From: Candidatus Brocadia sinica JPN1 | Lineage (GTDB): Bacteria > Planctomycetota > Brocadiia > Brocadiales > Brocadiaceae | DNA: 64,000 nt | Reading direction: 5' to 3' | Assembly (NCBI RefSeq): GCF_000949635.1 | Contig: NZ_BAFN01000001.1 | Span: 1,302,001-1,366,000, forward strand | Part shown: positions 33,611-37,932 of the stretch, in pieces | Layout of the letters: every line of letters begins with the position of its first letter | Numbering within the stretch: the first letter of the stretch is position 1 | Program-made: the position numbers and the translations under genes | The notes under the pieces: model-generated | Seen by the model: the letters and a program-made list of their open reading frames with translations, nothing else | Told to the model about the DNA's origin: nothing | Database searches by the model: none

Positions 33611-33632
33611 TTACTCCTGGTAATAACACAAC

Positions 33633-35687
33633 ATGGATATTTACGTTAAAAATTCCACATTATTAGAGCGAAAAGTAAAAATCTCGAATTCTAACGGGAT
33701 GCACGCGCGACCTGCCACCAAATTCTCGGAAATTGCAAATAAATATACTTCAGAAATCCGTATTAGAACAAAGAGTAAAGAGGTCGATGGCAAAAGCATT
33801 ATTGAACTTTTAACCCTTGGCGCGGAGAACGGCACAGAAATAATCATTAGCGCAAAAGGACCTGATGCAGCAGAGGCGCTGGATGCCCTGGAGGGATTGG
33901 TTAAAAGCAAATTTGAAGAAGAATTTATGGAAATCAGAAAAGGGATCGCAGTCTCTCCGGGTGTAATTATCCGTGAGGCCTTCATGTTTGAAAGTGAAGG
34001 ATACCGCATTCCCCGCCATATTATACGAAAAGAAGAGGTCGAGGGTGAAGTATACAGGCTCGAAAAGGCCATCGAAGATTCAAAAAAGGAAATACATGAT
34101 TTAGAGCAGAAGGTTTCTGAAAATTTAGGTTCTGAAATCGGGTCGATCTTTGGCACCCACCGAATGGTATTACAGGATGTCCGTTTAAAAAATGAAATTA
34201 TTGAAAAAATAAAGAAAACCAACTTTACACCGGAATTTGCCGTATCGCTTGCCTTGCGTGTATACATCAGAAAATTTCAGGACGTTCATGACTCTTATCT
34301 GGCAGAAAGAGTGACGGACATCTTTGATATTGAGCGGCGACTTTTAAGAAATTTGTTAGGAGAAAAGAGAGAGGAACTAAAGAATCTTGCTGAAGAAGTG
34401 GTATTGGTGGCACACGACCTTACCCCTTCTCAAACTGCTTCGCTCGACACGGAAAAAGTCAAGGGATTTGCCACTGACGTAGGCGGAAGGACCTCTCATA
34501 CTGCTATCGTTGCCCGCGCCTTAGGCATACCAGCTGTTGTCGGGCTTGGCACTATCACCACAGACGTCTTTGGGGGTGATACGGTAATTGTAGACGGTAA
34601 TAGTGGCATTGTTATTGTCAGGCCAGACGCAGAAACCCTGGCAACATACCAAAGCAAGGTCAAGAGCATACATGTCTTTGAAGAAAAATTAGCCACTGAG
34701 CTTAAGGATCAACCTTCAACCACGCGGGATGGCAAGCATATTTCCATTTTCGGCAATATCGAATTCCCAAAAGAAACCGGTCTGAACGTAAAATATGGCG
34801 CCGAGGGAATAGGCCTTTATAGGACGGAATTTCTCTATTTAGGCGCATCCAGTCCTCCAACAGAAGAGGAGCATCTCGAGGCATACACTGCTGTCGTGCG
34901 AGAATTAAAGGATAAGCCTGTTATCATTCGAACACTCGATCTTGGCGCCGACAAATTCGATTATTTGGATGACCGGAAGGAAGGAAACCCTTTCCTGGGA
35001 TGTCGTTCCATACGTTATTGCTTCGAAAATCCATCCATATTTAAGATACAACTGAGAGCCATTTTAAGGGCTTCTGTGCTGGGTAATGTGAAAATATTAT
35101 TTCCCCTCATTTCTTCTCTCCAGGAGTTGCGGCGCGCAAAGCAAATAGTTTGGGAAACTATGGAAGAATTAGATAAGGAAAATATCCCCTTTAATAAAAA
35201 CATTGATATGGGAATTATGCTCGAAGTCCCTTCCTCTGTCATTATTGCAGATACCTTAGCAAAGGAATGTGATTTCTTCAGTATCGGCACCAATGACCTT
35301 ATCCAATACTCTTTGGCTGTCGATAGAAATAATGAACGGGTGGCGTATCTGTATTGCCCCGTGCATCCTGCCATCTTGAGACTTTTAAAACTTGCAATAA
35401 CGGCAGCAGAAGAGAATAACATCCCGGTTGGAATATGCGGGCAAATGGGAAGTGAGATTGAATATACCGCTCCCCTTATCGGGTTGGGACTTACCGAGTT
35501 TAGTGTAGCCCCAGCAACGATTATACCGGAAATAAAAAAAATTGTCCGTTCGATTACTTTTGAAAAAGCAAAAGAGATAGCAGAAACGGCTTATCACTTT
35601 GACGACCCTGAAAAAACCATTAATTATCTCAGAAATATTGCTATTGACATATTGCCGGAGATTTTTGAGGGACAAAAATATCCTTGA
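33633..35687 (+). CDS. ptsI: HPr-Enzyme I fusion phosphotransferase
   Basis: One polypeptide of 684 residues combines HPr (about 10-95; active His24 in NGMHARPA; KSI Ser-46-equivalent retained) and Enzyme I (about 105-684). EI passes phosphate from PEP to its own His289 (GGRTSHTAIVARALG), then to HPr. The EI PEP-binding half is intact (GIGLYRTEFLYL, IGTNDLIQYSLAVDRNN, GICGQMGSE). Fusion of HPr to EI is not the commonest arrangement. It starts 22 bp after ptsN, so the whole PEP-HPr-EIIA chain is in one operon. Confidence 0.93.
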   Translation: MDIYVKNSTLLERKVKISNSNGMHARPATKFSEIANKYTSEIRIRTKSKEVDGKSIIELLTLGAENGTEIIISAKGPDAAEALDALEGLVKSKFEEEFMEIRKGIAVSPGVIIREAFMFESEGYRIPRHIIRKEEVEGEVYRLEKAIEDSKKEIHDLEQKVSENLGSEIGSIFGTHRMVLQDVRLKNEIIEKIKKTNFTPEFAVSLALRVYIRKFQDVHDSYLAERVTDIFDIERRLLRNLLGEKREELKNLAEEVVLVAHDLTPSQTASLDTEKVKGFATDVGGRTSHTAIVARALGIPAVVGLGTITTDVFGGDTVIVDGNSGIVIVRPDAETLATYQSKVKSIHVFEEKLATELKDQPSTTRDGKHISIFGNIEFPKETGLNVKYGAEGIGLYRTEFLYLGASSPPTEEEHLEAYTAVVRELKDKPVIIRTLDLGADKFDYLDDRKEGNPFLGCRSIRYCFENPSIFKIQLRAILRASVLGNVKILFPLISSLQELRRAKQIVWETMEELDKENIPFNKNIDMGIMLEVPSSVIIADTLAKECDFFSIGTNDLIQYSLAVDRNNERVAYLYCPVHPAILRLLKLAITAAEENNIPVGICGQMGSEIEYTAPLIGLGLTEFSVAPATIIPEIKKIVRSITFEKAKEIAETAYHFDDPEKTINYLRNIAIDILPEIFEGQKYP

Positions 35688-35766
35688 CAGCAAGAAACGG
35701 CATGATTAGAATTTTACATAAGTAGTTTGAATTATTAGAGTTGAACTTTTTTTGAACGGCTGATTA

Positions 35767-36396
35767 ATTATAGCAAAGATACGTATTCGATTTCATAAAT
35801 TAGGCGATATTCGCTTTATTTCTCATCACGATTTGATGAAGGTCTTTGAACGGGCTATTAGAAGGGCTAACATACCTATCGCGATGTCCAAGGGTTTTAA
35901 CCCTCACCCGAAATTGTCTATCCCCATAGCATTGAGTGTTGGAATAGCCGGCAAAGATGAAGTTTTGGAACTAGAATTGCCTGAATCGATGCCTCCTGAG
36001 ATTTTGGCCGAGCGTTTAGGTCGGCAGCTGCCAAAGGGTATTCATATTCTTTCAGGGGAGGCTATGCCATGTTCCCCAAGGAGTTCGGTTTGTGATGTAT
36101 TGTATGAGGTTGTTTTTAAAGATCCGGGCCTTCCCACGACGGAAAGGATTAGCGAATTTTTACAACAATCGTCGATTATTGTAAACCGCACAAAGGATGG
36201 ATATTCAAAACCTTTTGATATTCGACCTTCTATTCAGGAAATCACGGTAACGCCCAACGGGTTAATTTTGTCGATAAAAATGGAATCAGAAGGCATGGCA
36301 AGACCAGAAGAGGTAATCCATTCCTTATGTGGAAACGAGAAAAAAGGGCTCTTTGAAATTACGAGGATAAAGGTCAACCTGTCTTCTTCTGCCTAG
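35767..36396 (+). CDS. TIGR03936/DUF2344 protein, partner of TIGR03960; noncanonical start
   Basis: DUF2344 proteins accompany the TIGR03960 radical SAM protein. The family N-terminus, KIRIRFHKLGDIRFISHHDL, is encoded here but is upstream of the first TTG (35833) and ATG (35836). The in-frame stop TGA at 35761 leaves only TTA, ATT (35767) and ATA (35770) before it, so translation must begin at AUU or AUA; I give ATT, and ATA (ATA-GCA-AAG) is equally possible. The 208-209 residue product contains the conserved RRANIPIAMSKGFNPHPKLS. It is followed by an RNase E/G gene 15 bp downstream. Standard callers would truncate the protein by 22 residues. Confidence 0.85.
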   Translation: MIAKIRIRFHKLGDIRFISHHDLMKVFERAIRRANIPIAMSKGFNPHPKLSIPIALSVGIAGKDEVLELELPESMPPEILAERLGRQLPKGIHILSGEAMPCSPRSSVCDVLYEVVFKDPGLPTTERISEFLQQSSIIVNRTKDGYSKPFDIRPSIQEITVTPNGLILSIKMESEGMARPEEVIHSLCGNEKKGLFEITRIKVNLSSSA

Positions 36397-36411: not shown

Positions 36412-37932
36412 ATGGATAAGAGGATGCTTATTAATGCAGTTGAACCTGAAGAATGCCGCATTGCCATCTTAGAAAATAATATTCTGGAAGAACTTTACAT
36501 TGAAAGGAGTTCACGGGAACAAATTGCAGGCAATATTTACAAGGGAAGGGTTGTTAATATTGAACCCAGTATTGAAGCGGCTTTTGTTGATATCGGACTC
36601 AAAAAAAATGGATTTCTCCATGCATCGGACATTTTGATTCCCACCGAGAACGGGAGCCATGCATCAGATGCTGATACCCATGCCAGACCCCATCGGGAAT
36701 TCCGTAAGATAAGGGATATTTTGCATCAGGGACAAGAAGTGCTGGTTCAGGTGACAAAGGAAAGTATCGGCACAAAGGGTCCTAGTCTGACAACGTATAT
36801 CAGTCTGCCGGGAAGGTATCTGGTCTTGATGCCGGATGTGCCCCGCCACGGAGTTTCCAGAAAAATTGCGAGTGAAGAGGAACGGCAAAGGTTAAAAAAA
36901 ATACTTGAGGGATTGAATCCTCCCGCTAATGTCGGTTTCATCATACGAACGGCAGGGGCGCAGCAGACCAAAAAAGAGATCCACAAGGACTTTCATTATC
37001 TGTTAAAACTATGGAAAAACATTGAAAAACGATCAAAAAGCGTCAGTACCCCGGCAACTATTTATCAGGAAAGTGATCTGGTAATTCGGGCTATCAGAGA
37101 CATATTTTCACCTGACATACAGGAAATCATCGTAGACACGGAAGCCGTATATGAAAGAACACGTGATTTCCTTCGCATGATTATGCCCAAATATGAAAGA
37201 CATTTGACCCTTTACAGTGAGGATAAGCCATTATTTCATAAATATAATATTGAAAAAGAGATTGAGGAGATAAACTGTAAAAAAATCCGCTTGCCTCGCG
37301 GGGGCTCAATCGTGATTGAACAGACTGAGGCGCTTGTTGCAATTGATGTCAATAGCGGCAAATTTAAAGAAGAAAGCGACCCGGAGGAAACGGCCTTTAA
37401 AACCAATCTCAAAGCTGCAAGGGAAATTGCGCGTCAGATACGATTAAGGGACCTGGGCGGTGTAATTGTAATTGACTTTATTGACATGAGGACGGAATCG
37501 CACAATCATGCTATTGAAAAGGTTGTTGCAGAAGCCCTGAAAAGGGACAAGGCGCGAACAAAGATGCTGAAGATGTCAAAATTTGGCACCATTGAACTTA
37601 CCCGTCAAAGGATCCGGTCGAGTCTGCGGGATGTCCTTTTTGAGGAATGTAAGCTTTGCGGCGGCACCGGCTATGCCAAAACAGTTGAAAGCCTTTGTTT
37701 AAATGCCATGAGAGCCCTGAAGTTTGCTATCCATTCGCCTCAGATTGCCAGAATTGAAATCATTGCGAACCATGAGGTCGCAAATTATTTGCAAAATCAA
37801 AAAAGGAAGCAAATGATAGAAATCGAAGAGTCCTATAATAAAAAGATACATATTTTTAGCACAACGAATCACGAATACGGTAAAATAGATATTCGTTACT
37901 TCAATCAGAAAGATGAACTTGTTACCATATAA
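36412..37932 (+). CDS. rng: Ribonuclease E/G
   Basis: A single-strand-specific endoribonuclease for rRNA maturation and mRNA decay. The 506-residue length is that of RNase G or the catalytic half of RNase E. It has the S1-like domain (GNIYKGRVVNIEPSIEAAFV), the catalytic region with VAIDVNSGKF and VIDFIDM (metal Asp pair), and the Zn-link CKLCGGTGY. It lies immediately before rplU-rpmA, an order common in bacteria, where RNase G/CafA-type genes neighbour the L21-L27-Obg operon. Confidence 0.93.
   Translation: MDKRMLINAVEPEECRIAILENNILEELYIERSSREQIAGNIYKGRVVNIEPSIEAAFVDIGLKKNGFLHASDILIPTENGSHASDADTHARPHREFRKIRDILHQGQEVLVQVTKESIGTKGPSLTTYISLPGRYLVLMPDVPRHGVSRKIASEEERQRLKKILEGLNPPANVGFIIRTAGAQQTKKEIHKDFHYLLKLWKNIEKRSKSVSTPATIYQESDLVIRAIRDIFSPDIQEIIVDTEAVYERTRDFLRMIMPKYERHLTLYSEDKPLFHKYNIEKEIEEINCKKIRLPRGGSIVIEQTEALVAIDVNSGKFKEESDPEETAFKTNLKAAREIARQIRLRDLGGVIVIDFIDMRTESHNHAIEKVVAEALKRDKARTKMLKMSKFGTIELTRQRIRSSLRDVLFEECKLCGGTGYAKTVESLCLNAMRALKFAIHSPQIARIEIIANHEVANYLQNQKRKQMIEIEESYNKKIHIFSTTNHEYGKIDIRYFNQKDELVTI

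Follow-up and report, generated by a model that had tools for sequence, protein, structure and literature searches.

A conserved AUH codon as the very likely start of the TIGR03936/DUF2344 gene in Brocadiaceae

Introduction

Where does translation of a gene begin when none of the usual start codons precedes its conserved N-terminus? The question is raised by a TIGR03936/DUF2344 (PF10105) gene that lies in a 64,000-nucleotide stretch of DNA from an anammox bacterium of the genus Candidatus Brocadia, the window (G000:C1:1302001-1366000), and for which an earlier note, made from the letters of the sequence, had proposed initiation at AUU or AUA. AUA (or AUU) is a codon that bacteria rarely use to start proteins, and the AUU or AUC start of infC is the textbook case of such a start controlled by IF3. 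Very few bacterial genes with noncanonical starts have been characterized by experiment (PMC5472188; this and the other papers are cited from excerpts of their text). Our literature searches on TIGR03936, TIGR03960, "radical SAM-linked protein", and DUF2344 together with radical SAM found no publications, and none of our searches turned up a paper on the start codon of this family. Here, AUH (ATH in DNA) stands for ATA, ATT, or ATC, and NTG for the canonical start codons.

Results

Reading frame and family membership

The open frame of the gene extends from stop to stop over 35764-36396 (table 1). After the TGA at 35761-35763, it reads TTA (35764), ATT (35767), ATA (35770), GCA, AAG, ATA, CGT, ATT, CGA, TTT, CAT, and AAA. 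ATG, GTG, and TTG are all absent from this TGA up to codon 35833, where a TTG, followed by the ATG at 35836, is the earliest in-frame NTG codon. The gene is a member of TIGR03936 and of DUF2344 (PF10105), scoring above the curated cut-offs along the model. In a search of the window's own genome, the TIGR03936 model matches at 176.1 bits (cut-off 71.9) over model positions 1-204 of 209, and PF10105 matches at 159.8 bits (cut-off 23.8; E 8.1e-47) from residue 5 of frame 35764-36396. Because the TIGR03936 match begins at contig position 1337776, which is position 35776 of the window, the family N-terminus is encoded upstream of the first canonical start. The earlier note had claimed as much, and its corollary that noncanonical initiation is required is supported, NTG being absent between the TGA and codon 35833. 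Its statement that only TTA, ATT, and ATA lie between the TGA and the conserved motif needs correction: all three are present, but GCA and AAG are there too. Additional ATA or ATT codons occur within the motif itself (35779 and 35785).

Table 1. Features of the start region and its neighborhood, in window coordinates
Feature	Coordinates	Strand	Basis
Radical SAM gene, TIGR03960	28352..30196	+	775.5 bits; canonical ATG start
Upstream gene, HPr-PtsI like (PEP-utilizing enzyme)	33633..35687	+	Frame 33627-35687, Met at 33633; Pfam matches
Promoter-like site, TTGACA-N17-TAGAAT	35684..35712	+	Overlaps ptsI stop codon; consensus match at 11 of 12 positions
Weak Shine-Dalgarno-like stretch, AACGGCTGA	35755..35763	+	Pairing of -2.2 kcal/mol
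Alternative initiation codon, ATT	35767..35769	+	12 of 31 family genomes have ATH at the 35767 column
Most likely initiation codon, ATA	35770..35772	+	AUH column in the family; outgroup starts at the same column
TIGR03936/DUF2344 (PF10105) gene	35770..36396	+	208 residues plus stop; profile matches, predicted model
Conserved N-terminal coding stretch, KIRIRFHKLGDIRFISHHDL	35776..35835	+	Upstream of first ATG; dN/dS-type ratio
TTG/ATG, first canonical in-frame start codons, judged internal Leu-Met	35833..35838	+	Shine-Dalgarno pairing absent upstream in the family; inside predicted helix 19-32
Downstream gene, RNase E/G family	36412..37932	+	PF10150, E 7.6e-105

Start codons across Brocadiaceae

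Among 33 genomes labelled Brocadiaceae (family f1), 31 have a match to the gene and two (G027 and G032) have none. The loci read were L002-L031 and L056 (n = 31); L032-L054, largely repeats of the same contigs, were left out. Codons are numbered so that codon 0 is at 35764, codon 1 at 35767, and codon 2 at 35770. An ATH codon occupies the start position in all 31 genomes with the gene, and this comparison of relatives, which the earlier note had named as a check, supports its proposal of an AUU or AUA start. Codon 2 is ATA in 10, ATC in nine, and ATT in eight genomes (27 of 31), and codon 1 is ATT or ATA in the remaining four loci (L021, L030, L031, and L056). All 31 loci lack NTG throughout codons 0 to 14. 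From the upstream in-frame stop to codon 6, the frame is free of NTG in 28 genomes, that of the window included; the exceptions are L029 (TTG at codon -2), L031 (TTG at codon -1), and L056 (GTG at codons -45 and -38). The gene thus combines the two traits of an AUH-start gene, a conserved N-terminus free of NTG and an AUH codon kept in relatives, and judged from these alignments its initiation at AUH is very likely.

ATH is present at both codons 1 and 2 in eight of the 31 genomes, including that of the window, so the exact start codon is not fixed by this pattern alone. We favor ATA at 35770 over ATT at 35767 because codon 1, ATT in the window, is ACT in three near relatives (L003, L004, and L005), all of which keep ATA at codon 2; AUU at 35767 is the less likely start. 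The third base of the start codon is A in 13, T in nine, C in nine, and G in none of the 31 genomes, with at least eight changes inferred on the family tree and never to G. By our own estimate, such avoidance of G has a probability of about 0.08 under neutral choice and is only suggestive. At one locus (L028; G007:C107 61569-62196), the gene is in two frames in the assembly, perhaps through a sequencing frameshift.

Outgroups and other families of the order

As an outgroup control, we used 38 loci from other families of the order, class, and phylum, with families f2 and f4 treated apart. The set was drawn from the listed entries among the 131 phylum genomes that matched, with some loci of the class and order added, and the columns of distant codons were obtained by gap-free extension. 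An in-frame NTG lies at or before codon 3 in 37 of the 38 loci and is missing in one (L181). The closest NTG falls within codons -4 to 2 in 34 loci, and codon 2 itself is NTG in five (GTG in L062, L115, L180, and L193; ATG in L164). From these positions it follows that the AUH codon of Brocadiaceae sits where starts usually sit, and that the lack of NTG is a trait of this family. The exceptional outgroup locus, from a distant relative (L181; G101:C55 1658-2842), lacks ATH as well as NTG ahead of the conserved motif, its codons there being TCA CTT TTT TGG.

In f2, codon 3 is ATA (nine) or ATT (one) in all 10 loci, which come from nine genomes; NTG is absent before codon 6 in three of these loci and present further upstream in seven. 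An AUH start is seemingly kept in this second family of the order. In f4, codon 3 is TTG in 15 of 15 loci. In the f4 leaders (e.g., L138, L139, and L141), a AGAGGTTGATAAATATTT-like block is conserved about 35 nt ahead of the TTG. It resembles the Shine-Dalgarno region of Brocadiaceae despite lying so far from the start, and either the f4 start or a small leader ORF may have been misjudged. In a protein tree of 70 rows, from which three of the 15 f4 loci were dropped as too short, f1 and f2 each form one side of a branch (support of 99 and 96), and two changes are needed to place AUH and NTG starts on the tree. The simplest history has one origin of AUH before the radiation of f1, and for f2 either another origin or shared ancestry with later losses.

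infC, tRNAs, and genome background

Of the 30 infC loci fetched, 28 have ATT or ATC at the expected column and two (L104 and L105) have it one codon earlier. Two loci (L084 and L093) have an additional NTG two codons before, and one further genome (G014) was without a locus. In the window genome, infC is preceded by CGGAGGAG. The ATT and ATC starts of infC indicate that AUH initiation of the classical kind exists in this lineage or order.

With 150 of 201 tRNA candidates scored, 46 matches were obtained, covered by ARAGORN on 43 loci. Three have CAU anticodons. No UAU anticodon is present among these 46 matches, which thus give no sign of a special initiator tRNA.

To place the gene against its background, about 0.96 Mb of the window genome (about a quarter) was surveyed against 1.2 Mb (less than a third) of a second Brocadia genome (G002). 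A first version held 41 non-overlapping pairs and the enlarged version 173 homologous ORF pairs, some of which are shadows. The infC region was put into the survey on purpose, and infC and the TIGR03936 gene as a pair are not a random draw. In both genomes, 20 of the 173 pairs align over at least 10 codons upstream of the first NTG. Ratios before and after the first NTG were 0.25 and 0.05 for infC and 0.19 and 0.24 for the TIGR03936 gene, and these two are the only recognizable genes of the survey with low ratios on both sides. The 18 other pairs were set aside, mostly by eye, as apparent antisense or overlapping-frame shadows, CRISPR-like repeats, or ATG genes with a chance leader alignment.

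Three of the frames set aside also have low ratios on both sides (G000:C1 818958-819225, 0.31 and 0.16; 2404087-2404435, 0.26 and 0.47; 508598-508901, 0.20 and 0.30), and these are probably or possibly shadows. The last of them is opposite what we take to be atp genes. The first two are short, and in both Brocadia genomes they are conserved in a protein-like way ahead of their first NTG; they may be antisense shadows or further noncanonical starts. At about G000:C1 352998-357958, translated repeats (SIPYRFNE and FQFLIGSMKG) are found in both G000 and G002 and look like CRISPR arrays with similar repeats.

Shine-Dalgarno pairing, leader, and promoter-like site

In the window genome, AACGGCTGA pairs with CACCUCCUUU of the 16S tail at -2.2 kcal/mol, 6 nt before 35770. 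Pairing before the AUH codon averages about -4.7 kcal/mol across Brocadiaceae (-4.74 to -4.77), and 20 sets of shuffled leaders gave family means averaging -1.54 (SD 0.32). Seen as compensation for a weak codon, the pairing exceeds the null in the family mean (-4.74 vs. -1.54) but is only -2.2 in the window genome, where such weak pairing counts against efficient initiation.

Four promoter-like sites occur in a 301-base stretch, compared with 1.4 in shuffles. A consensus match to TTGAC-N16-20-TANNNT is present in 27 of 31 Brocadiaceae genomes and absent in L029, L030, L031, and L056. From the site overlapping the ptsI stop codon, the gene would be transcribed independently, with a leader of about 50 nt. 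Between this site and the Shine-Dalgarno region is an AU-rich leader block (window 35719-35753; consensus CATAAGTATTTTAATTTATTATATTTGAAG) that is conserved across the family (14 aligned sequences), less so in L052. The block could help 30S binding, perhaps as an S1-type enhancer.

Proposed mechanism of initiation

We put a probability of about 0.75 on the reading that the gene is translated from an AUH codon, most likely AUA at 35770, via a CAU tRNA, with an output that is low and that rises when IF3 is low or stringency is relaxed. Transcripts driven by the conserved promoter-like site that overlaps the ptsI stop codon would have a short AU-rich leader, and an AAGG- or GAGG-type Shine-Dalgarno sequence, weak in the window genome, would position the 30S subunit at the AUH codon, which the ordinary CAU initiator tRNA would then read with a mismatch at the third codon base. 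IF3 would work against this codon and output would stay low; with less stringent initiation or low IF3, output would rise, as for infC. Output is likely to be low, and control by IF3 is plausible given the type of codon. We infer the use of fMet-tRNA and, likewise, which of the two AUH codons is used in the window genome.

In an in vitro survey, the first two codon bases tolerate only Watson-Crick pairs, and IF3 acts against weak third-base pairs, including AUU with CAU (PMC10158994). The Brocadiaceae start codons, invariant in A and U and with any third base other than G, fit discrimination of this kind, the pairing named in the excerpt being AUU with CAU and not AUA with CAU. IF3 action on noncanonical starts is documented elsewhere (PMC5472188, PMC10158994). 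In Staphylococcus aureus, reporters with AUA or AUU starts yield about 10% of the AUG output when the medium is poor, and one gene reaches up to 30% when it is rich (PMC13009471).

It is quite possible, if short of probable, that the AUH start is real and sets only a low, constant level, with IF3 or stringency carrying no regulatory information. Drift of the third base among A, T, and C is expected if only weakness is kept, and the AUU of cvfC1 yields about 10% of AUG output in poor medium and has no medium effect in the published excerpt (PMC13009471). Against a constant level, IF3 represses noncanonical starts generally elsewhere (PMC5472188), and complete insensitivity is thus unlikely.

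Selection on and structure of the N-terminus

Two further explanations place the start elsewhere. In the first, translation would start at the internal TTG (35833) or ATG (35836), with the conservation upstream a relic or an RNA feature. These are the codons that a gene caller limited to NTG would pick, the ATG is at the 35836 codon in all 31 Brocadiaceae genomes, and a TTG precedes it in 20 of them. We consider such a start improbable. Within the genus (11 genomes), the ratio of nonsynonymous to synonymous change equals 0.13 over codons 4-22, compared with 0.05 over codons 24-59; the corresponding values in the four closest genomes are 0.21 (codons 3-22) and 0.06. Selection is somewhat weaker before the ATG than after it, but these ratios point clearly to protein-level selection on the stretch upstream. 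An internal start also fits poorly with the Shine-Dalgarno pattern, as pairing before the internal ATG has a family mean of 0.0 and that before the preceding codon a mean of -0.28. In an AlphaFold2 model built from 24 sequences (mean pLDDT of 89.4), residues 2-10 form strand 1 (block pLDDT of 92) and the internal Met (residue 23) is inside helix 19-32. A short form would therefore lose part of the core, namely the first strand and the beginning of the helix. Furthermore, many outgroup loci with an NTG start well upstream likewise have ATG at this Met codon.

In the second, ribosomes would reach the N-terminus by reading through a stop or shifting frame, for instance when starting at TTG 35752 and crossing the TGA at 35761. 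This in-frame TTG is three codons before the TGA, and a TGA is just before the reference codon (35764) in 10 of 31 Brocadiaceae genomes. In relatives, however, the upstream stop varies in type (TGA, TAA, or TAG) and distance, and the leader, read in the same frame within the genus, has a ratio of 1.58 and thus no protein-type selection, which makes this explanation very improbable. A sequencing error, which the earlier note had listed as a possible refutation of the noncanonical start, or a decaying gene could be suspected from the odd start and the split of the gene in the G007 assembly, but neither is credible when 31 assemblies agree and a 208-codon frame is intact and under selection.

Neighborhood and identity of the protein

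The frames after the RNase E/G gene are, as we take it from their translations, those of L21, L27, and Obg, and the radical SAM protein TIGR03960 is presumably often a partner or fusion of TIGR03936. The predicted model of the DUF2344 product matches TruA/PUS3 (Foldseek E of 1.9e-6, probability 1.00), with Z of 13.4-13.6 over 184-195 residues (1vs3: Z of 13.4 over 184). By this model, the product would share the PUS fold of the TruA-type pseudouridine synthases. It differs from TruA and PUS3 in sequence, at about 12-13% identity. TruA has its catalytic Asp in an RTD motif, and SRTDAGVH in the TruA of the window genome (L346) is presumably that motif. By eye, SRTDAGVH has no evident counterpart in the DUF2344 product, which has an invariant GFNPHP instead. 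Profile comparison between DUF2344 and the TruA of this genome yielded no usable alignment, and sequence alignments of the two were unreliable. Among 24 sequences, nearly all of them from Brocadiaceae, not one Asp is invariant, and TruA-type catalysis by the product is therefore doubtful. PseudoU_synth_1+DUF2344 is already listed as a split pseudouridine synthase domain in a clustering of Pfam (PMC7955657, excerpt), so the link between DUF2344 and the PUS fold is not new.

The predicted PUS-like fold, the neighborhood (RNase E/G, L21, L27, and Obg), and the conserved AUH start led us to consider an autoregulatory loop. The DUF2344 protein and its radical SAM partner would modify initiator tRNA or ribosomal P-site RNA and raise stringency, which the gene's own AUH start would then sense. 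This would be analogous to IF3 acting on infC, but run by an RNA-modifying enzyme. We regard the loop as a long shot.

Discussion

AUG is one base change away, yet AUH is kept in 31 of 31 Brocadiaceae genomes with the gene, so the weakness of the start itself looks selected. A conserved weak start suggests that the cell holds down or tunes the amount of this protein. The starts of Brocadiaceae also provide a comparative test of what initiation tolerates, the first two bases being fixed and the third free except for G. For annotation, a gene caller limited to ATG, GTG, and TTG would cut 21 or 22 residues from the protein, first strand included. Such truncation would spoil structure prediction and function assays of the uncharacterized DUF2344 family.

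Among known systems, infC is similar in that an AUH start is kept over the whole lineage, and it is found in the same genome and order. It differs in that it encodes IF3 and has a strong AGGAGG in the window genome, whereas the TIGR03936 gene codes for a DUF2344 protein, has AUA among its starts, and shows weaker Shine-Dalgarno pairing. The sigR gene of Streptomyces is likewise a gene other than infC with a noncanonical start conserved across relatives; unlike the TIGR03936 gene, it starts at GTC and not at AUH, has a very extensive RBS, and has an IF3 effect that was shown by experiment (PMC5472188). Closest in codon are ccpN (AUA) and cvfC1 (AUU) of S. aureus, ordinary genes whose conserved starts were shown to cut initiation; there, the Shine-Dalgarno is extended and the start was mapped by ribosome profiling (PMC13009471). 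As far as the excerpts describe them, the sigR and S. aureus cases have a strong or extended Shine-Dalgarno, as opposed to the -2.2 kcal/mol of the window genome (PMC5472188, PMC13009471). Noncanonical bacterial starts are thus already known, and what is unusual here is the wide, family-wide conservation of one in an uncharacterized gene.
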